This document shows positions 15,801 to 24,643 of a stretch of 38,488 nucleotides of DNA, in pieces. The notes beneath the pieces were generated by a model. It ran no database searches. It saw only the letters and a program-made list of their open reading frames with translations, and was not told where the DNA came from. Position 1 is the stretch's first letter; each line of letters begins with the position of its first letter. This DNA is from Clostridia bacterium. Its GTDB lineage: Bacteria; Bacillota; Clostridia; Oscillospirales; Acutalibacteraceae. The stretch spans positions 1-38,488 of the forward strand of contig JAFQSY010000010.1 of the NCBI GenBank assembly GCA_017409265.1. Reading direction: 5' to 3'. The position numbers and the translations under genes were made by a program.

Positions 15801-16838
15801 TTATTTCAGCGCCTTAACGGCGTTTTCAAGTTTATCGAGGTTTTCCTGTTTTGTTGCCCAGCTTGCGCAGAATCTTACTCCGCTTTTTTTATCGGAAAGA
15901 GCGCACCAATAATCATAAGTAAATTCTTTTGAGAGAGTTTCAAGTTCATTATCGGGAATAATCGGGAATTGCTGATTTGTTGTTGAATCAAACAGAAACT
16001 CATATCCGTTAGATTCGAAAATTTCATGAATCCTTTTTGCGCATTCAATCGCATAGGCGGAAATTTCAAAATACAGCCCGTCTTCAAAAAGCGTTTCAAA
16101 CTGTATTCCGAGAAGCCTTCCTTTTGCAAGAAGTCCGCCCTTTTGTTTAATTACATATCTGAAATCTTTTTTGAGGTATTCGTTGTTAATTACAAGTGCT
16201 TCCCCGAAGAGTGCGCCGACCTTTGTTCCGCCGATGTAAAAAACATCACAGTTTGCCGCAACATCGGGAAGAGTCAGGTCGCATCCGTCGCTTGCAAGTG
16301 CGTAGCCGAGTCTTGCGCCGTCGATATAAAGAAACATTCCCGTATTTTTGCAAACCGAATATATATCTTCAAGCTCTTTCTTTGTATAAACCGTTCCGCC
16401 CTCTGTCGGCAGCGAAATATAAACCATCGCAGGCTGAACCATATGCTCATGGCAGACATCGTTGTGATGAGCGTTAAAGCATTCTTCAATCTGTTTAGTG
16501 GTCAGCTTGCCGTTGCTTGAGGGGAGCGCAAGCACCTTGTGACCCGTAGCCTCGATTGCTCCGCTTTCATGAACGTTTATATGACCCGACTGTGCGCTGA
16601 TAACGCCTTGGTGAATACGAAGTGCGCTGCTTATAACAGCGGTGTTTGTCTGTGTTCCGCCGACAAGAAAATGAACATCGCTTTCGGGTGCGTTGCATAC
16701 TTTTTTAATCATTTCTTTAGCTCTGGTGCAATGCGGGTCACAGCCGTAGCCTGCGGTTTGTTCCATATTTGTTTCAACGAGCTTTTCGATTATTTTCGGG
16801 TGAGCTCCCTCAAGATAGTCGCAGTCAAATCTTATCAT
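15801..16838 (-). CDS. Threonine-aldolase-family PLP enzyme (low-specificity L-threonine aldolase-like)
   Basis: About 345 residues of the beta-eliminating lyase/threonine aldolase fold (PF01212). Seen are the start MIRFDCDYLEGAHPKII, the GGTQTNT phosphate loop, SGHINVHESGAIE with the ring-stacking His, YIDGARLG (D173) and the PLP lysine K206 in YIGGTKVGALFG. Threonine aldolases split L-threonine or L-allo-threonine into glycine and acetaldehyde; relatives also handle other beta-hydroxy amino acids. AAGGAG lies inside the end of the MFS gene and the two genes are one base apart, so uptake of the substrate by that transporter is a fair guess. Confidence 0.85.
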   Translation of the reverse strand: MIRFDCDYLEGAHPKIIEKLVETNMEQTAGYGCDPHCTRAKEMIKKVCNAPESDVHFLVGGTQTNTAVISSALRIHQGVISAQSGHINVHESGAIEATGHKVLALPSSNGKLTTKQIEECFNAHHNDVCHEHMVQPAMVYISLPTEGGTVYTKKELEDIYSVCKNTGMFLYIDGARLGYALASDGCDLTLPDVAANCDVFYIGGTKVGALFGEALVINNEYLKKDFRYVIKQKGGLLAKGRLLGIQFETLFEDGLYFEISAYAIECAKRIHEIFESNGYEFLFDSTTNQQFPIIPDNELETLSKEFTYDYWCALSDKKSGVRFCASWATKQENLDKLENAVKALK

Positions 16839-16839
16839 T

Positions 16840-18051
16840 TTATTTCTCCTTCATTTTTCTTTCGCTTAAGATTCCTGCAAAACAGATTACTGCGGCAATA
16901 ACACATACACCGAGCATTATTGTGAAAACAGCGTTCCAGCCATGATTCTGTGAAACGGCGCCGAGAGTGTAAGATGTTACTGTGCTGCCGATATAGCAGA
17001 AGGTGTTGAGAAGCCCTGCGGCAAAGCCTGCATTGAGCATTCTGCGGTAATCGAGCGCAAACATGCTTGTGATAACGTTGTTAATCATTGACATTCCGCA
17101 TGCAACACAAATGAAGCAAATCATAATCGTAACAATGCTGTGTATCTTAAGTGAGAAAAGTATTCCGCCGCAAAGCGCTGCTGAAAAGATATAGAATATG
17201 CAGTTCATGGCGGCGTGGGATTTGATTTTTTCGTGTATCTTTTTTGCAATGGCTGCACCCATTGTAGAAACCATCGGTAAAAGAAGTGTCAGAAGAATGG
17301 AAAACGATTGAGAAACATCAAATTCCTCATAAAGAACAGAGGGTACCCACGTGTTTATGCCGTCTTTGATAAATCCGTTTGCCACTCCTGCAAATGCGGC
17401 AAGCAAAAGCGCAAGAAGAACAGGCTTTGCCATTTTGACCTTTTCAGCTTTGATTTCTTCAGCTTGAATGGCTTTTTCGGGTGCTTTGCCGAAAAGTATA
17501 AACCAGATTATGGCGCTGATAACAAGAACAGCCGACGCAACGTAAAAAACAGTCTGCCAATTATCCATGCGCACCGAGAGCGATGAAATACCGTAGGCGA
17601 CAAGTGTTCCGATTGCAACCGTTGTGCTCATTGCAAGGATTGCTTTGGGCAGCTTTTTATCAGAAACAAAATCCGAGAGGGTTTTTATGAGTGTGCTCCA
17701 TAATACTGACTGAACGATTCCGTTACCCATCCATATGAATTTCATCATTGAAATGTCATTACATACGGGCATCATAATGTTGAAAACGGCAGAGCAGGTA
17801 AGCGAAAGAAAAATCATGATTTTTGCGTTATATTTCTTCGAAAGAATGCCGTTTATAAGCTGACCTGCGCCGTAAGCGAAGAAAAAGAATGAGCTTACAA
17901 GCCCTGCATCAGCTTTCGTTACTCCGAGATCAGAGATAATTGCGACAATTGATGCGTTGAAATTGAGTCTGCCGACATATGCTGCCGTATAGGCAAGCCA
18001 GCAGATAAATATTATTTTATTTTCGTTTTTATTTTTAATGAGTGTTTCCAT
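16840..18051 (-). CDS. MFS transporter (organophosphate:phosphate antiporter-like)
   Basis: About 403 residues with around twelve membrane helices and a central loop near residues 190-215. The first helix region WLAYTAAYVGRLNFNAS recalls the GlpT/UhpT group. Similar proteins move many anions or sugar phosphates, so the substrate is open. A longer frame starts 18 bases upstream, but GAAGAAGGT within that stretch is the ribosome site for the ATG at 18051. The gene is coupled to the threonine-aldolase-like gene, which suggests amino acid or hydroxy acid uptake (inference). Confidence 0.8.
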   Translation of the reverse strand: METLIKNKNENKIIFICWLAYTAAYVGRLNFNASIVAIISDLGVTKADAGLVSSFFFFAYGAGQLINGILSKKYNAKIMIFLSLTCSAVFNIMMPVCNDISMMKFIWMGNGIVQSVLWSTLIKTLSDFVSDKKLPKAILAMSTTVAIGTLVAYGISSLSVRMDNWQTVFYVASAVLVISAIIWFILFGKAPEKAIQAEEIKAEKVKMAKPVLLALLLAAFAGVANGFIKDGINTWVPSVLYEEFDVSQSFSILLTLLLPMVSTMGAAIAKKIHEKIKSHAAMNCIFYIFSAALCGGILFSLKIHSIVTIMICFICVACGMSMINNVITSMFALDYRRMLNAGFAAGLLNTFCYIGSTVTSYTLGAVSQNHGWNAVFTIMLGVCVIAAVICFAGILSERKMKEK

Positions 18052-18075
18052 TTTATTACCTTCTTCCAAACGGAT

Positions 18076-18104
18076 AGTTTATCACCTTTGTTAATTTTGG
18101 TCAA
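18076..18104 (-). promoter_or_regulatory. Promoter of the MFS/threonine aldolase operon
   Basis: TTGACC (18104-18099), 17-base spacer, TAAACT (18081-18076) on the minus strand. Its -35 box is only eight bases from that of the divergent hyd promoter, so the two promoters may compete or share a regulator. Confidence 0.5.
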
Positions 18105-18112
18105 TACTGTCA

Positions 18113-18141
18113 TTGACAATAATTCTAAAACATTATATAAT
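18113..18141 (+). promoter_or_regulatory. Consensus promoter of the hyd maturation operon
   Basis: TTGACA (18113-18118), exactly 17 bases, TATAAT (18136-18141): a perfect sigma-A consensus. Such a strong promoter is unusual before genes needed in small amounts. It fits control exerted after initiation, by the leader terminator just downstream. Initiation is expected near 18148. Confidence 0.8.
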
Positions 18142-18190
18142 TAAATTACAATCCTGACATAAGGAATTTCCGAGTGAAAGGTGCATGAAT

Positions 18191-18214
18191 ATGTTATATT
18201 TGTATATACCATAG
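18191..18214 (+). CDS. Possible leader peptide MLYLYIP in the hyd leader
   Basis: A seven-codon frame ending TAG at 18212-18214, directly before the terminator stem that begins at 18215. GAAAGGTG lies 9 bases before its ATG. Another ATG at 18185 would add two residues. Two of seven codons are for tyrosine, the substrate of HydG. It may be chance in AT-rich sequence; see findings. Confidence 0.25.
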   Translation: MLYLYIP

Positions 18215-18249
18215 CTGCGCCTTTTTGTCAGGGCGCAGTTTTCTTTTTT
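18215..18249 (+). terminator. Leader terminator upstream of the hyd operon
   Basis: CTGCGCC (18215-18221) pairs with GGCGCAG (18232-18238) across a 10-base loop, followed by TTTTCTTTTTT. It stands after the promoter and before the first gene, not at an operon end, so it must be read through or be regulated. Confidence 0.8.
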
Positions 18250-18261
18250 GCGGAGGTAATT

Positions 18262-18519
18262 ATGGAAAAAAGAATAGCGGTTATCGGTATAATAGTTGAA
18301 AACAAAGATTCGGTTGAAACTCTCAATTCCCTTCTTCATGAATTTGGAGATTTTATTGTCGGCAGAATGGGTTTGCCCTATAAAGAGCGCGGTTTAAGCA
18401 TAGTCAGCCTTGCCGTTGATGCTCCGCAGAACACGATTTCGGAGCTGACAGGCAAAATCGGAAAGCTTGACGGAATAAGTGTAAAAACAGCTTATTCAAA
18501 CAAAATTTTCAATGATTGA
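18262..18519 (+). CDS. TM1266-type iron-only hydrogenase system putative regulator
   Basis: An 85-residue ACT-like domain protein (MEKRIAVIGIIVENK, GRMGLPYKERGLSIVSL, KLDGISVKTAYS) of the family regularly found with the HydE/F/G genes. Its role is not established; the fold suggests ligand binding or regulation. A GTG 81 bases upstream keeps the frame open, but it would run through the leader terminator, whereas GCGGAGG sits about 6 bases before the ATG at 18262. The end overlaps hydE by eight bases. Confidence 0.88.
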   Translation: MEKRIAVIGIIVENKDSVETLNSLLHEFGDFIVGRMGLPYKERGLSIVSLAVDAPQNTISELTGKIGKLDGISVKTAYSNKIFND

Positions 18520-19555
18520 GTTAATAAACAAGCTCGAAAAGGAGCAGAGCCTGACCCTTGCCGAATACGAATTTCTGATAGAAAACCGAAATGAAGAAGC
18601 CGCAAAAATCCTTTCTGAAAAGGCTGTTGAAAAACGAAAAGAAGTTTACGGAAATGATGTTTATATCAGAGGATTAATCGAAATATCCAATATCTGCAAA
18701 AATGACTGCTGTTATTGCGGAATAAGAAGAGGTAACAAAAACTGTGAGCGATACCGTCTTACGAAGGAGCAGATACTTTTATGCTGTGACGAGGGTTATC
18801 CTCTCGGCTACCGCACCTTTGTTTTGCAGGGCGGCGAAGATTCTCATTTCAGTGATGATTTTTTGTGCGATATAATTACTTCAATAAAATTAAAATACCC
18901 CGACTGCGCGGTAACATTATCTCTCGGTGAACGAAGCTTTGAGAGCTATAAAAAACTCCGTGAAGCCGGCGCAGACAGATATCTTCTCCGCCACGAAACC
19001 GCCGATAAAGAACATTATGAAAAGCTTCACCCTGCGGATATGTCATTTGATAACCGCATGGAATGCCTGAAAAACCTTAAAAAACTCAGATTTCAAACCG
19101 GTTGCGGATTTATGGTAGGCTCTCCTTATCAGACATCTGCAACTCTTGCGAAAGACCTCAAGTTCATAGAAGAATTTAGACCCGAAATGTGCGGAATCGG
19201 ACCTTTTATTCCGCATAAGGATACCGAATTTTCAAATTTTCCTGCGGGTACGGTTGAGCTTACCTGCTATCTTCTCTCAATCGTCAGGCTGATTTCTCCC
19301 GATATTCTTCTTCCTGCTACAACGGCGCTCGGCTCAATTGATTCTTTTGGCAGAGAAAAAGGAATACTTTCGGGTGCAAATGTCGTTATGCCGAATCTTT
19401 CACCTGAAGATGCAAAGCAGAAATATCAGCTTTATAATAACAAGCTTTCAAGCGGAGCTGAAGCAGCCGCAAACAAACGAATGCTTGAGGAACGTATGGA
19501 ATCAATAGGATATAAAATAGTTACAAATATAGGCAATCATAAGAAAGGAAATTGA
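18512..19555 (+). CDS. hydE: [FeFe]-hydrogenase H-cluster radical SAM maturase HydE
   Basis: 347 residues. HydE acts after HydG in assembling the di-iron subcluster of the H-cluster. The radical SAM cysteines C62, C66 and C69 (ICKNDCCYCG) bind the 4Fe-4S cluster. Also typical are VLQGGED, LSLGERS, RYLLRHET, GFMVGSPYQT and GIGPFIPHKDT. No ribosome site precedes the ATG, which lies inside the regulator gene, so translation probably depends on coupling. The length is normal. Confidence 0.94.
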   Translation: MIELINKLEKEQSLTLAEYEFLIENRNEEAAKILSEKAVEKRKEVYGNDVYIRGLIEISNICKNDCCYCGIRRGNKNCERYRLTKEQILLCCDEGYPLGYRTFVLQGGEDSHFSDDFLCDIITSIKLKYPDCAVTLSLGERSFESYKKLREAGADRYLLRHETADKEHYEKLHPADMSFDNRMECLKNLKKLRFQTGCGFMVGSPYQTSATLAKDLKFIEEFRPEMCGIGPFIPHKDTEFSNFPAGTVELTCYLLSIVRLISPDILLPATTALGSIDSFGREKGILSGANVVMPNLSPEDAKQKYQLYNNKLSSGAEAAANKRMLEERMESIGYKIVTNIGNHKKGN

Positions 19556-19556
19556 T

Positions 19557-21005
19557 ATGGCAATTTATAATCCCAAATCACTCAAAGCAGAAGAATTTAT
19601 CAATCACGAAGAGATACTTGCAACGCTCGAATATGCGGAGCAGAATAAGAATAACGCAGAGCTTATTGACAGTATTCTTGAAAAAGCACGTCCCAAGAGA
19701 ACCGCAACGGGAACAACCTGCGCAGGTCTTACTCACAGAGAAGCGTCAGTCCTTCTTGCCTGTGATATTCCAGAGAAAAATGAGGAAATGTTAAAACTTG
19801 CAGAAGAAATCAAGCAGGCATTTTACGGCAACAGAATTGTTATGTTTGCTCCTCTTTATCTTTCAAACTACTGCGTGAACGGCTGCGTATATTGTCCTTA
19901 TCATCTAAAAAATAAGCACATTGCAAGAAAAAAGCTTACACAGGAAGAGGTAGCAAAGGAAGTTATCGCTCTTCAGGATATGGGCCATAAGCGCCTTGCA
20001 ATTGAGGCAGGCGAGGACCCTGTAAATAATCCCATTGAATATATCCTTGAATGCATCAAAACAATTTACAGCATTAACCATAAAAACGGAGCAATCCGTC
20101 GCGTTAATGTTAATATTGCTGCAACAACCGTCGAGAATTACCGCAAGCTTAAGGATGCTGGAATCGGCACATACATTCTCTTCCAAGAAACCTATCATAA
20201 AGAGAGCTATCTCAAGCTTCATCCCACAGGCCCCAAGCATGATTATGACTATCATACAGAAGCTATGGACAGAGCTATGGAGGGTGGAATTGACGATGTC
20301 GGTCTCGGTGTGCTTTTCGGGCTTGAGCTTTATAAGTATGAGTTTGCGGGTCTTATGATGCACGCAGAGCATCTTGAAGCCGTTCATGGCGTCGGTCCTC
20401 ACACAATCAGTGTTCCCAGACTCAAAAGAGCGGACGATATTGACCCCGATGCCTTTGATAATGGTATTGCCGATGAGCTTTTTGAAAAGCTTATTGCATG
20501 TATCAGAATTGCCGTGCCTTACACAGGCATGATTATCTCAACAAGAGAATCAGAGGCTGTCAGAGGCAGAGCGCTGCGCCTTGGTATTTCACAGATAAGC
20601 GGTGCTTCAAGAACATCTGTCGGTGGCTACACCGAAGAAGAAAGACCGCATGATTCCGAGCAGTTTGACGTTTCCGACCAGAGAACTCTTGATGAGGTTG
20701 TCAGTTGGCTTATGGAGCTTAAGCACATTCCTTCATTCTGTACCGCATGTTACAGAGAGGGCAGAACGGGTGACAGATTTATGGCTCTTTGTAAAAACGG
20801 TCAGATTCTTAATTGCTGCCATCCGAATGCATTGATGACTCTTACCGAATATCTTGTTGACTACGCAAGCGAGGAAACAAAGAAAATCGGATTTGAGCTT
20901 ATAAAGAATGAGCTTAAAAAGATTCCAGGCGAAAAGGTCAGAGCAATTGCAGAGAAAAATATTGAGGATATCAAAGCCTCGAACCGACGCGACTTCAGAT
21001 TTTAA
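19557..21005 (+). CDS. hydG: [FeFe]-hydrogenase H-cluster radical SAM maturase HydG (tyrosine lyase)
   Basis: 482 residues. HydG splits tyrosine into p-cresol and dehydroglycine, which yields the CO and CN ligands of the H-cluster. The radical SAM cluster is C106, C110 and C113 (YCVNGCVYC). The C-terminal auxiliary cluster motif is C395, C398 and C421 (CTACYREGRTGDRFM, NCCHP). HHTEAM-like and GPHTISVPRLK segments are conserved. AAAGGAAATT inside the end of hydE is the ribosome site, one base between genes. All expected ligands are present, so it should be active. Confidence 0.95.
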   Translation: MAIYNPKSLKAEEFINHEEILATLEYAEQNKNNAELIDSILEKARPKRTATGTTCAGLTHREASVLLACDIPEKNEEMLKLAEEIKQAFYGNRIVMFAPLYLSNYCVNGCVYCPYHLKNKHIARKKLTQEEVAKEVIALQDMGHKRLAIEAGEDPVNNPIEYILECIKTIYSINHKNGAIRRVNVNIAATTVENYRKLKDAGIGTYILFQETYHKESYLKLHPTGPKHDYDYHTEAMDRAMEGGIDDVGLGVLFGLELYKYEFAGLMMHAEHLEAVHGVGPHTISVPRLKRADDIDPDAFDNGIADELFEKLIACIRIAVPYTGMIISTRESEAVRGRALRLGISQISGASRTSVGGYTEEERPHDSEQFDVSDQRTLDEVVSWLMELKHIPSFCTACYREGRTGDRFMALCKNGQILNCCHPNALMTLTEYLVDYASEETKKIGFELIKNELKKIPGEKVRAIAEKNIEDIKASNRRDFRF

Positions 21006-21014
21006 GGAGTTTTT

Positions 21015-22214
21015 ATGAGTCTTAATGAAACTGTTTCTGCCGAAAGAATCCATATCGGCTTTTTTGGCATGAGAAATGCGGGTAAGTCAAGCATTGTCAA
21101 TGCAGTTACGGGTCAAAATCTTTCGTTGGTTTCCGATGTTAAGGGTACGACAACTGACCCCGTAAAAAAAGCAATGGAGCTTCTGCCTCTCGGTCCCGTT
21201 GTTATTATTGATACACCCGGTGTTGACGATGAGGGAGAGCTTGGCGAGATGCGTGTAAAGCGTGCAAAGCAGGCACTCAATTATTGCGATATAGCGGTTC
21301 TTGTTGTCGATGCATCGAAAGGTATTCAAAATGCCGATAAAGACCTGATTTCTGCATTTGAAAGCAAAAAAATCAGCTATGTTGTAGCGTACAACAAAGC
21401 CGATTTGTTTGAAGATGTTCCCGAAAAAAATGAAAATTCGATATATGTCAGCGCTGCAGACGGAACAAATATAAATGAGCTCAAGGAAATGATTGCGCGA
21501 ATGGCAAAAGGGTGGGAGAGCGGCAAAAAAATCGTTGCCGACCTTATCGAACCGAACGATTTGGTTGTTCTTGTTGTTCCGATTGATGAATCCGCCCCCA
21601 AAGGCAGGCTTATTCTTCCGCAGCAACAGGTAATCAGAGAGGTTATCGAAAGCGGTGCGGTGGCTGTTGTCTGCCGTGATACGGAGCTTAAAGCAACTCT
21701 CGAATCGCTCGGCAGAAAGCCGAAGCTTGTCATAACCGATTCGCAGGTGTTCGGAAAAGTTTCAAAGGATACTCCCGCTGATATTCCGCTGACATCATTC
21801 TCGATACTTTTTGTGCGTTATAAAGGTGACTTGACCGCCGCTGTTCATGGCGCAGCACAGCTTGATAAACTGAATGACGGCGATGTTGTTCTCATTTCAG
21901 AGGGCTGTACCCATCACAGACAATGCAACGATATCGGTACGGTTAAAATGCCGAATTGGGTAAGAAATCACACAAATAAAAATATTGAATTTGAGTTTAC
22001 AAGCGGCAAGGATTTCCCGGAGGCTTTGTCAAAATATTCTCTTATAATTCATTGCGGAGGATGTATGCTCAATAACCGTGAAATGCAGTACAGAGCAGGT
22101 CATGCGAACGATTGTGATGTTCCCATGACAAATTACGGAATAGCAATTGCTCATATGCACGGAATCCTTAAACGCAGCGTTGAACTTTTTCCCGAAGCAT
22201 TGAAAGAACTTTAA
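21015..22214 (+). CDS. hydF: [FeFe]-hydrogenase H-cluster maturation GTPase HydF
   Basis: 399 residues. HydF is the GTPase scaffold on which the di-iron subcluster is assembled and from which it is passed to apo-hydrogenase. The GTPase part has GMRNAGKS (G23 to S25), DTPG and NKAD. The C-terminal cluster site has C298 and H300 (EGCTHHRQC) with H346, C347 and C350 (HCGGC), the normal ligand set. It follows hydG after nine bases with AAGGAG as ribosome site and closes the operon before a strong terminator. No hydrogenase structural gene (hydA) is in the window. Confidence 0.95.
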   Translation: MSLNETVSAERIHIGFFGMRNAGKSSIVNAVTGQNLSLVSDVKGTTTDPVKKAMELLPLGPVVIIDTPGVDDEGELGEMRVKRAKQALNYCDIAVLVVDASKGIQNADKDLISAFESKKISYVVAYNKADLFEDVPEKNENSIYVSAADGTNINELKEMIARMAKGWESGKKIVADLIEPNDLVVLVVPIDESAPKGRLILPQQQVIREVIESGAVAVVCRDTELKATLESLGRKPKLVITDSQVFGKVSKDTPADIPLTSFSILFVRYKGDLTAAVHGAAQLDKLNDGDVVLISEGCTHHRQCNDIGTVKMPNWVRNHTNKNIEFEFTSGKDFPEALSKYSLIIHCGGCMLNNREMQYRAGHANDCDVPMTNYGIAIAHMHGILKRSVELFPEALKEL

Positions 22215-22220
22215 AACAAC

Positions 22221-22252
22221 AACCGCCGAGGTTCAAAACTTCGGCGGTTTTA
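22221..22252. terminator. Bidirectional terminator between hydF and araA
   Basis: AACCGCCGA and TCGGCGGTT (9 bp) with a further inner pairing, followed by TTTTATC on the plus strand and T on the minus strand. Both hydF and araA end at it. Confidence 0.8.
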
Positions 22253-22259
22253 TCATATC

Positions 22260-23735
22260 TTATTTAAGCTTCCATGCAAGGTCGTTGAGGAAGAGTTCGT
22301 TTTCAAGACCTTCGGGAGTAGTGTTTTTATTGATATGAACAAATTCAATGTTCATGATTCTTGCAAAATCGCGAAGCATTTCTGCGTCTGCATCGTATGA
22401 GAGAACGGTGTGATGTGCGCCGCCTGCGATAATCCAGCATTTTGCGCCTGTGCAAAGGTCGGGCATTGCTCTCCACATAACTCTCGCAACGGGAAGATTT
22501 GGCATGGAAAGAATGGGCTTTACACATTCGATATCCTGGCAAATCATTCGAAGTCTGCCTCCCATATCGATAAGACTTACAACAACTGCAGGACCTGCCT
22601 TGCCTTCAAAAACAAGTCTTGCAGGGTCGCCCTTTCCGCCGATTCCGAGCGGATGAACTTCAATTCTGGGCTTATCAGCTGCAAGAGTGGGGCAGACCTC
22701 AAGCATGTGTGCACCGAGCGAATATTCTGCACCGGGTGCGAGATTGTATGTATAGTCCTCCATGAATGCCGAGCCGCCGTTCATGCCTTCGGTCATTGCT
22801 TTGAGGATTGCTGTCATTGCGGAAACCTTCCAGTCGCCCTCGCCGCCGTAGCCGTAGCCCTGCTCCATAAGTCGCTGACTTGCAAGTCCGGGAAGCTGCT
22901 TCATGCCGTGAAGGTCCTCGAAGGTGTTTGTGTATGCTTTACAGCCTTGTTCATCAAGCATCTTCTTGATTGCAATTTCTTCTTTAGCCTGATAGCGTAC
23001 AGCATAAAGATTGTCTGTTGCAATATCATATTTTTCTGCATATTCAGCCATAAGTGCATCGACTTCTGAATCTGTTACAGCGTTGATATATTCAACAAGT
23101 GTGCCGACGGGCCATGTGTTGACTTCCCAGCCAAGTTGTTCCTGAACGCCGACCTTATCGCCTTCGGTAACGGCAACATTTCTCATGTTGTCGCCGAAAC
23201 GCATAACCTTAAGTCCTTTTGAGAATGCGGCGCCGACTGCCGAACGCATCCACTTGCCGAGCTCTGTAAGAACCTTTTCATCCTGCCAATAACCCATGAT
23301 AACCTTTCTGGGAGTGCGGAGTCTCGCGGCAATGAAGCCGTGCTCTCTGTCGCCGTGAGCAGCCTGATTGAGATTCATAAAGTCCATATCAATCTCTTCG
23401 TTGGGAATGTCGCGGTTATACTGTGTTGCAAAATGGCAGTAGGGCTTCTGAAGCTCTTTGAGACCGTTAAGCCACATTTTTGAGGGAGAGAAGGTATGCA
23501 TCCATGTTATGATGCCTGCGCACTTATCGTCAAAGTTTGCTTCTTTAACTACCTTTGTAATTTCTTCGCTTGTTTTTGCGGTTACCTTATAAACAACCTT
23601 GCAGGGGAGAAGTCCGCTTGCGTTCATTTTTTCTGCCATTTCTTCTGCCCTTGCCGTAACAATATCAAGCACCTCGGGTCCGTAAAGAAACTGGCTGCCG
23701 ACAACAAACCAGAACTCATATTTTTCCATATACAT
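22260..23735 (-). CDS. araA: L-arabinose isomerase
   Basis: 491 residues, converting L-arabinose to L-ribulose. Seen are the opening YEFWFVVGSQFLYGPE, the active-site TWMHTFSPSKMW, NRDIPNEEIDMDFMNLNQ, and the Glu of GEGDWK. The late GGAHHTVLSYD and the whole length fit. AAAGGATGA lies about 10 bases before the first of two ATGs, so 23735 is taken. Single-gene unit: no araB kinase or araD epimerase nearby. Confidence 0.95.
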   Translation of the reverse strand: MYMEKYEFWFVVGSQFLYGPEVLDIVTARAEEMAEKMNASGLLPCKVVYKVTAKTSEEITKVVKEANFDDKCAGIITWMHTFSPSKMWLNGLKELQKPYCHFATQYNRDIPNEEIDMDFMNLNQAAHGDREHGFIAARLRTPRKVIMGYWQDEKVLTELGKWMRSAVGAAFSKGLKVMRFGDNMRNVAVTEGDKVGVQEQLGWEVNTWPVGTLVEYINAVTDSEVDALMAEYAEKYDIATDNLYAVRYQAKEEIAIKKMLDEQGCKAYTNTFEDLHGMKQLPGLASQRLMEQGYGYGGEGDWKVSAMTAILKAMTEGMNGGSAFMEDYTYNLAPGAEYSLGAHMLEVCPTLAADKPRIEVHPLGIGGKGDPARLVFEGKAGPAVVVSLIDMGGRLRMICQDIECVKPILSMPNLPVARVMWRAMPDLCTGAKCWIIAGGAHHTVLSYDADAEMLRDFARIMNIEFVHINKNTTPEGLENELFLNDLAWKLK

Positions 23736-23770
23736 AAAGAATCATCCTTTATAATAAAATATACAATTAA

Positions 23771-23799
23771 ATATTACCATCCATAACTTATAAAGTCAA
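23771..23799 (-). promoter_or_regulatory. Promoter of araA
   Basis: TTGACT (23799-23794), 17-base spacer, TAATAT (23776-23771) on the minus strand, about 36 bases before the start. Confidence 0.5.
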
Positions 23800-23839
23800 G
23801 AAAACGAAAGTAAAATATGTAATAATATCTTGAAATATT

Positions 23840-23869
23840 TTGCATATTCTGCTAAACTGAAATTATAAT
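23840..23869 (+). promoter_or_regulatory. Promoter of the glycerophosphodiesterase gene
   Basis: TTGCAT (23840-23845), 18-base spacer, perfect TATAAT (23864-23869). Confidence 0.55.
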
Positions 23870-23896
23870 CAATAAGTATATTGAAAGGTGATTTAA

Positions 23897-24643
23897 ATGG
23901 CTTGTAAAGTAATTTCTCACAGAGGCGCCAACAGACGCGCTCCGCAGAATACTCTTCCTGCATTTGAGCATTCAATCAAAATCGGTGTTGACGGATTTGA
24001 AACAGACATACATCTTACAAAAGACGGCGTTCCCGTTGTCTGTCATAACTATACAATTGACGAAACCTCAACCGGTAACGGCGAAATCCGCAGCATGACT
24101 CTTGAAGAGCTCCGCACATATGATTTCGGTTCATATTTTCATGAAAAATATGCAGGAACAAAGCTCCCGACTCTTGAAGAGTTTCTTGCTCTTTGCGAAA
24201 CTGCCGATATCGAGATAATGAATATCGAAATCAAGCCGCCTCTTGACGGTAATATGGAAATTGTTAAGAAAACCATTGATGCCGTTAAGGCTCACGGGCT
24301 TTTTGACAGGCTCCTTATCTCAAGCTTTGATGCCAATGTTCTTGTTGAATGCAAAAAGGTTGACCCCAACTGCAAAACAGGCTATCTTTACTGCCCGAAG
24401 CAGAAGGTTTTTTTCACGAAACTGCTTTTCGGCTATGTTAAGTTTGCAAAAGAGATAAAGGCTGATTATTTCCATCCCCACTTCTCATCGGTTAACAAGA
24501 GATTTGTCAGAAGACTCCATGAAAACGGAGTTAAGGTGAATGTTTGGACAGTTAATGATGAAAAGGTTGCAAAGTATCTTCTCAAATGCGGAGTTGACGG
24601 ACTTATCACCGATGTTCCAGATGTAATGAATAAGCTTGTATAA
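23897..24643 (+). CDS. Glycerophosphodiester phosphodiesterase
   Basis: 248 residues with no signal peptide, so cytoplasmic. It hydrolyses glycerophosphodiesters to glycerol-3-phosphate and an alcohol. The family signature is complete: SHRGANRRAPQNTLPAF, DGFETDIHLTKDG, VVCHNYTIDETSTG and IEIKPP. The C-terminal VNVWTVNDEKV and GVDGLITDVPD also match the UgpQ type. Ribosome site AAAGGTGA, own promoter and terminator. Confidence 0.92.
   Translation: MACKVISHRGANRRAPQNTLPAFEHSIKIGVDGFETDIHLTKDGVPVVCHNYTIDETSTGNGEIRSMTLEELRTYDFGSYFHEKYAGTKLPTLEEFLALCETADIEIMNIEIKPPLDGNMEIVKKTIDAVKAHGLFDRLLISSFDANVLVECKKVDPNCKTGYLYCPKQKVFFTKLLFGYVKFAKEIKADYFHPHFSSVNKRFVRRLHENGVKVNVWTVNDEKVAKYLLKCGVDGLITDVPDVMNKLV

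Follow-up and report, generated by a model that had tools for sequence, protein, structure and literature searches.

The window analysed here was a stretch of 38,488 nucleotides (nt) from a member of the Clostridia (contig JAFQSY010000010.1). It contained the hydrogenase-maturation operon TM1266-hydE-hydG-hydF, which was preceded by a 5' leader with a conserved, nearly two-fold symmetric RNA rod and an intrinsic terminator (Table 1). The initial annotation of this locus had named the operon, a perfect consensus promoter, a 114-base leader and an intrinsic terminator ahead of the first gene, and these features were all recovered. The four genes were identified by NCBIfam equivalogs scoring over their cut-offs, and the promoter, with a 12/12 score, was the top of 19 promoter-like sites in positions 16000–24000. 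The leader ran over 114 nt from the inferred start site to 18261, and the terminator stem (18213–18240, 11 pairs) was followed by TTCTTTTTT. The fold of the window leader was better than those of all 200/200 dinucleotide shuffles (z −3.34). The annotation had also read the leader as one of the attenuation type, and this reading was upheld by the comparison of leaders.

Table 1. Features of the TM1266-hydE-hydG-hydF locus in the window
Feature	Position	Strand	Basis or remark
Sigma-A type promoter, TTGACA-17-TATAAT	18113..18141	+	12/12 consensus matches; TTGACA 18113–18118, 17-nt spacer, TATAAT 18136–18141; start site inferred near 18148
Conserved pseudo-two-fold rod (putative sensor domain)	18152..18182	+	model R2, covariation, symmetry test, minimum-energy fold
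Strand a, CCTGACA	18153..18159	+	rod 5' strand; pairs with 18226–18232 in the window ON fold
Strand b, AAAGGTGCA	18177..18185	+	rod 3' strand and antiterminator 5' strand; pairs with 18216–18224
Intrinsic terminator	18213..18250	+	5' arm 18216–18224 = strand c; loop and start of 3' arm 18226–18232 = strand d
Shine-Dalgarno GGAGG of TM1266	18252..18256	+	read from sequence
TM1266 family protein (TIGR03959 / PF21699), proposed RNA partner	18262..18519	+	115.3 bits, cut-off 60.8; Pfam; fold matches
hydE	18512..19555	+	TIGR03956, 556 bits
hydG	19557..21005	+	TIGR03955, 929 bits
hydF	21015..22214	+	TIGR03918, 565 bits

A conserved rod in the leader

The rod was composed of 31 nt just 3' of the start site, in the order CCU-GA-CAU-AA-hairpin-GA-GUG-AA-AGG. 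Three short helices were formed in the window, P1 (18153–18155 with 18179–18181), P2 (18158–18160 with 18174–18176), and P3 (18163–18165 with 18169–18171). They were separated by two GA/RA internal loops lying 3–4 base pairs (bp) apart, GA/AA between P1 and P2 and AA/GA between P2 and P3. The rod was the minimum-energy fold of a 36-nt piece of the window (−7.6 kcal/mol), and the model R2 matched the window at 3.1e-9, the window being one of the 36 training rows of R2.

When the leaders of 44 TM1266 loci were compared, the second copy of the window (L031) being excluded, 23 fitted a conserved-core pattern directly 3' of the promoter, CCUGACAY-NA-RG...CY-GM-RUG-AAAGG, which was followed by a variable spacer, the terminator, and the start codon. 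The remaining loci included several divergent forms, as judged by eye, and about 10 showed no core. The core was parsed as P1 (CCU/AGG), a GA/AA loop, P2 of 3 or 4 bp, an NA/GM loop, and the P3 hairpin. Two subtypes were distinguished: P2 had 3 bp in type 1 (alignment A4, 36 sequences) and 4 bp in type 2 (alignment A5, 17 sequences), where the loops were often GA/GA.

A set of 64 leaders was assembled from 46 leaders matched by the model R1 and the 23 pattern-fitting leaders, with 5 of the 69 removed as near-duplicates. The R1 leaders came from 48 of 80 loci matched in the leader at an E-value up to 5; the weak L126 and L160 were left out, and the weak L154, L095, L143, L149 (0.99–4.6), and L113 (0.75) were kept. 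As a result of this selection, the set was enriched for clear cases. The leaders L003, L004, L034, and L038–L041, divergent or apparently permuted by eye, stood outside the statistics. A promoter-like site (up to 4 mismatches in 12) lay within 60 nt 5' of the element in 55/64 leaders, compared with a mean of 21 (maximum 27) in 50 shuffles that preserved base composition only, and the median distance from the −10 box to the element was 9 nt.

In raw counts, uncorrected for the kinship of the sequences, paired cells amounted to 90.6% in A4 and 92.9% in A5, compared with 80.8 and 78.3% in shuffles; cells changed on both sides numbered 41 and 32, compared with 13.6 and 11.1; and loop 2 showed a non-canonical covariation, in which J2a started with U in 15/20 elements whose J2b ended in C and in 1/41 others (Fisher 3e-9). 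When the 3' partner was shifted by one column, pairing fell below 50% in both alignments. Loop 1 was near-invariant, with GA opposite AA or GA in 59/61 parsed elements. Each strand of the rod read YCU-GA-helix-RA-ARG from 5' to 3', and the two strands were identical at 6.4/10 positions (61 parsed elements), compared with 2.8 (standard deviation 0.9) on permutation of the positions of one strand, with 2/10,000 permutations as high. The symmetry and loop counts leave out the parsed leaders L106, L130, and L141, and both tests lean towards the consensus because the parse rewards the letters GA and AA. A conserved structured domain, which is one of the features of a riboswitch class, was present in the 5' leader.

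Variant arrangements were also seen by eye. In L038–L041 the opposite end of the rod was apparently closed by a loop, as if circularly permuted (uncounted), and these leaders together with L034 resembled a circularly permuted or rearranged rod. In L154 (Sporobacter termitidis), a tandem pair of rod-like units lay at roughly 2830–2914, ahead of TM1266-hydE-hydG-hydF.

A terminator and a competing antiterminator

Strand b of the rod was complementary to the terminator 5' arm, strand c (TGCGCCTTT), a pairing that, like the rod itself, was absent from the initial annotation. Since strand b serves both partners, the rod and terminator (OFF) and the antiterminator (ON) are mutually exclusive. Across the 64 leaders, the pairing of strand b with its own terminator 5' arm had a mean energy of −11.40 kcal/mol, compared with −8.96 kcal/mol for swapped partners. 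The variable flank alone gave −6.69 kcal/mol with its own arm and −5.65 kcal/mol with swapped arms, and 0/20,000 permutations were as good in either case. The own pairing was better than the median swap in 52/64 leaders for strand b and in 45/64 for the flank alone.

The two states of the window were balanced, with −28.4 kcal/mol for the antiterminated fold and −28.1 kcal/mol for the rod-plus-terminator fold. The minimum-energy fold was the rod with transcription at 18190 and the antiterminator at 18226. The energy of the ON fold minus that of the OFF fold had a median of +2.85 kcal/mol over the 64 leaders (quartiles 0.8 and 4.45). Pairing between strands b and c (at least 5 positions) was formed in the ON folds of 55/64 leaders and pairing between strands a and d (at least 4) in 31/64, and P1 of the rod was formed in the OFF folds of 44/64. 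A mutually exclusive expression platform, also a feature of riboswitch classes, is thus predicted, and the identification of the leader as a transcription attenuator is well supported by the aligned sequences. The rod with its covariation, the terminator, the antiterminator, their mutual exclusion, and the controlled genes were established by comparison and computation.

Distribution and controlled genes

TM1266 was present in 41/60 genomes, the genome of the window among them. When R1 was run over 80 TM1266 loci from named records, 33/33 matches at an E-value below 0.01 lay just upstream of TM1266 (L124 and L136 repeat training genomes). Over 119 relatives, R1 matched 33 genomes at an E-value up to 0.01, and all matches better than 1e-3 were upstream of TM1266 or hydE; 13 previously unseen loci were inspected, and the other matches were leaders from the 44-locus set. 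Among 341 genomes of the class, 16 were matched by R2 and 33 by R3. Below 1e-4, 8/8 R2 and 17/17 R3 matches were at TM1266 or hyd loci (the window, G054, and G102 being training rows), and the weaker matches were unrelated in 4/8 and 4/17 cases, respectively. In the phylum samples, R3 matched 3/229 genomes, two of them at TM1266 loci, and R2 matched 4/189, with the window and one other at TM1266-hyd. Named carriers included Lacrimispora amygdalina (L104, R1 E-value 0.0037). Others had weak R1 scores and were accepted on the strength of their place and parse, namely Loigolactobacillus rennini (L150, 0.063), Sporobacter termitidis (0.99), Massilioclostridium coli (L095, 1.7), and a metagenome-assembled genome of Roseburia hominis (L149, 4.6). 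Judged from these matches, the same switch recurs across many Clostridia.

Weak matches outside leaders, with no TM1266 or hyd gene beside them, were dropped (L074, L076–L079, L180, L183, L185, L186, L213, L216–L218, L262, L264, and L266). Two weak R2 matches, L185 (G271) and L266 (G487), have the look of T-box leaders (GGGTGGTACC), and a similarity between part of T-box stem I and their GA-rich internal loops is possible. No T-box was matched by Rfam in the window.

The element was located ahead of TM1266-hydEGF operons and other units with hydE, hydG, or hydF, and also ahead of TM1266-FecCD-ABC clusters and of units in which TM1266 is joined to an ECF transporter. Among 45 element-bearing TM1266 loci, the next genes were hyd genes in 32, FecCD-ABC genes in 6, and a membrane protein gene in 7. 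The element also stood before hydE or hydG without a directly adjoining TM1266 (L071, L176, L179, L201–L205, L210, and L215), and between TM1266 and hydE, hydG, or hydF (L188, L190, L191, L193, and L208). G437 carried two elements about 11 kb apart, one ahead of hydE and one ahead of hydG, and its TM1266 gene lay on a different contig.

HydE followed in 5/6 FecCD-ABC loci within the stretch covered. The cluster L267 (G505:C1:90500-99500) was composed of an element, TM1266, a second element, a FecCD permease, an ABC ATPase with a C-terminal TM1266-like domain, HydE, a NifH-like protein, and two Oxidored_nitro (nitrogenase-component-like) proteins. The cluster L268 (G102:C7:41000-47500) had the order element, TM1266, FecCD, ATPase with a C-terminal TM1266-like domain, and NifH-like protein. 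The nitrogenase-like genes were read in these two clusters, and the other FecCD clusters were read over shorter stretches. The membrane protein, of about 180–191 residues, was encoded just downstream of TM1266 in L098, L099, L101, L120, L127, L162, and L166; BLAST linked six of the seven to the proteins of L098 or L120, and L166 was assigned by eye. Pfam identified an ECF S component in L098 (over the cut-off) and L120 (just under it), and gave no match for the L166 protein. The substrate of this membrane protein may point to the ligand of the system. In L150, a relative of the membrane protein lay upstream of the element.

Proposed mechanism and relation to known systems

TM1266 was present in 38/39 element-bearing genomes of the class sample, and all three operon types began with it. 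The TM1266 of the window, with 85 residues, gave a single Pfam match (PF21699, residues 4–76), which left no NikR-type DNA-binding domain, and NCBIfam and Pfam name the family as a putative regulator only. The nearest folds to its predicted model (predicted local distance difference test, pLDDT, 96), after its own structure, were NikR regulatory domains among the best Foldseek matches listed, with identities of 11–22%. TM1266 is predicted to have the C-terminal regulatory fold of NikR, the nickel-responsive repressor, without its N-terminal DNA-binding part, which in NikR is a ribbon-helix-helix. No RNA-binding attenuation protein was named among the matches listed (50 of Foldseek's best 1000 chains), which is not evidence of absence. 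In L022, L028, and L029, which carried no RNA element, TM1266 lay directly 3' of what appeared by eye to be the C-terminal (ACT) end of an aspartate kinase gene.

The leader may act as a four-strand transcription attenuator whose rod is bound by a TM1266 dimer, a joint reading to which we give a probability of about 0.5. In the OFF state, strands a and b would form the rod and strands c and d the terminator. In the ON state, strand b (AAAGG plus flank) would pair with strand c, so that the terminator cannot form, and in some leaders, the window included, strand a would pair with strand d. Stabilisation of the rod would favour termination, and the maturation genes would be expressed less. A TM1266 dimer, as a NikR-like sensor without a DNA-binding domain, is by analogy the most likely binder of the rod, and its small ligand, for which a metal, a cofactor precursor, or a transported nutrient are candidates, would decide whether it binds. 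The switch probably answers to TM1266 or a related metabolite; the candidate signals named in the initial annotation were an iron-sulfur, tyrosine, SAM, or H-cluster precursor state. With a confidence that falls somewhat short of even, TM1266 may be the founding member of a novel type of RNA-binding attenuation protein, in which a NikR/ACT-type ligand sensor that lacks a DNA-binding domain reads a two-fold-symmetric RNA rod. Its one regulon would comprise H-cluster maturation (hydE, hydG, hydF), the nitrogenase-like cluster with the TM1266-domain transporter ATPase, and ECF-type uptake, with a metallocofactor building block as the shared ligand.

Several observations weigh against this reading. 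Further pair types in the rod were no better than in shuffles (495/500 as high in A4 and 296/500 in A5), nor was the number of pairs with change on both sides in A4 (121/500 as high). Fewer than 5 pairs between strands b and c were formed in the ON model of 9/64 leaders, P1 was missing from the OFF model of 20/64, and the automatic choice of terminator looked wrong for several leaders (e.g. L092, L096, and L103). The fold energies are those of naked RNA, without pseudoknots or co-transcriptional kinetics. The element-bearing genome G132 (97% complete) showed no TM1266, and 133/167 genomes with HydG and TM1266 had no detected element. TM1266 showed high conservation whether or not its locus had the element; the most-differing positions, uncorrected for kinship, were A77 (65/69 with the element, 16/39 without) and Q56 (69/69 and 29/39), where 20 loci of unclear status were set aside and L003 and L004 were counted in the group without the element.

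The main alternative, a possible but doubtful one, is a small-molecule or metal riboswitch, in which the rod itself would serve as the aptamer and might hold two equivalent ligand sites, with TM1266 sensing the same compound independently. A compact conserved domain with a variable terminator/antiterminator platform is the usual layout of riboswitches, the letters of loop 1 were near-invariant, and small-molecule uptake is represented in the controlled operons by an ECF S component and a FecCD-type ABC transporter. However, the element was found in 1/46 HydG genomes without TM1266, and an unbranched, two-loop rod with two-fold symmetry would be more like the site of a protein dimer. That symmetry would also suit a different dimeric RNA-binding protein, and the element sometimes stood away from TM1266 in the loci listed above. 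We consider such a protein unlikely, given the presence of TM1266 in 38/39 genomes and its first place in all three operon types, although other shared genes were not searched for.

The initial annotation had proposed that CCTGACA, exactly complementary to TGTCAGG at 18226–18232, could form an antiterminator or pseudoknot with it. The complementarity was confirmed, and the helix was the outer helix of the lowest-energy, antiterminated fold of the window; as a conserved core it was rejected. An exact match of at least 6 nt occurred in 6/64 leaders, compared with 0.96 on average among 420 rearranged words (13/420 reach 6), and the full 7-nt match in 3/64 (L016, L124, and L167), compared with a mean of 0.086 (2/420 words reach 3). 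The match was therefore mildly enriched and sporadic. In the swap test, the 5' 9 nt gave −5.90 with their own whole terminator and −5.30 with swapped ones (10/20,000 permutations as good; better than the median swap in 36/64), which was weaker than the test of strand b with the terminator 5' arm, and no signal was obtained with the terminator 5' arm plus loop (27/64 leaders). That this helix alone is the switch is very improbable, as 58/64 leaders had no exact 6-nt match while pairing between strands b and c was modelled in 55/64. The helix is best read as an accessory of the antiterminated state, and conservation resides in the two-fold-symmetric rod and in the antiterminator between the AAAGG flank and the terminator 5' arm.

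Attenuation through the Tyr codons of a leader peptide, the window frame MNMLYLYIP that ends at the terminator, can be dismissed almost entirely, even though tyrosine is the substrate of HydG, since a closed open reading frame of at least 6 codons with at least 2 Tyr occurred in 1/64 spacers (13/64 for such frames of any kind) and no short reading frame was conserved.

The initial annotation had named no riboswitch class associated with hydEGF, and this agrees with Rfam 15, which gave no match in the window at the gathering cut-off; at an E-value up to 10, the best was a sub-threshold L10_leader with 22.7 of 44 bits. On 20 related loci, Rfam matched only 5S, lysine, ZTP, and tRNA families, none at the coordinates of the element. 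The element is similar to transcription-terminating OFF riboswitches in its conserved sensor domain and exchangeable antiterminator and terminator, and differs from them in matching no Rfam family at threshold and in its two-fold-symmetric, unbranched rod. According to PMC9481103, tungsten-cofactor riboswitches, a different class, occur upstream of hydrogenase genes; no match to them was found here.

Among the closest known systems is the RAT (ribonucleic antiterminator) of BglG, LicT, and SacY, described in passages of PMC3369936 as a leader hairpin whose two internal loops are recognised similarly by a CAT-domain homodimer and whose formation is exclusive with the terminator. The rod shares the hairpin with two similar internal loops and the exclusion of alternative structures at a terminator, and its recognition by a dimer is proposed by analogy with that system. 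In the RAT, binding stabilises the antiterminator and leads to read-through, whereas the present rod has a separate antiterminator as its competitor, and binding of a protein would accordingly be expected to cause termination. The first gene of the window operon matched only PF21699, not the CAT domain, the rest of the genome being outside this search.

A literature search that mostly did not extend to subscription journals listed no description of an RNA element at hyd genes and none of RNA binding by TM1266. In PMC11109978 and PMC7266159, the passages dealing with new and orphan riboswitches did not contain the term hydrogenase. Strand exchange is a known mode of transcription attenuation; the RNA element, the gene set, and the proposed protein partner appear to be new. 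The conserved switch offers a small and concrete target, an RNA of 31 nt and a protein of 85 residues, and would be new in either case, as a riboswitch class or through a family of RNA-binding proteins. Through its controlled genes, the switch links hydrogenase maturation with nutrient uptake and a nitrogenase-like system, and these links narrow the range of candidate signals.

Upstream of the operon, a gene for a major facilitator superfamily (MFS) transporter was encoded divergently on the minus strand (16840–18069), and the intergenic region also contained promoter-like sites on that strand.
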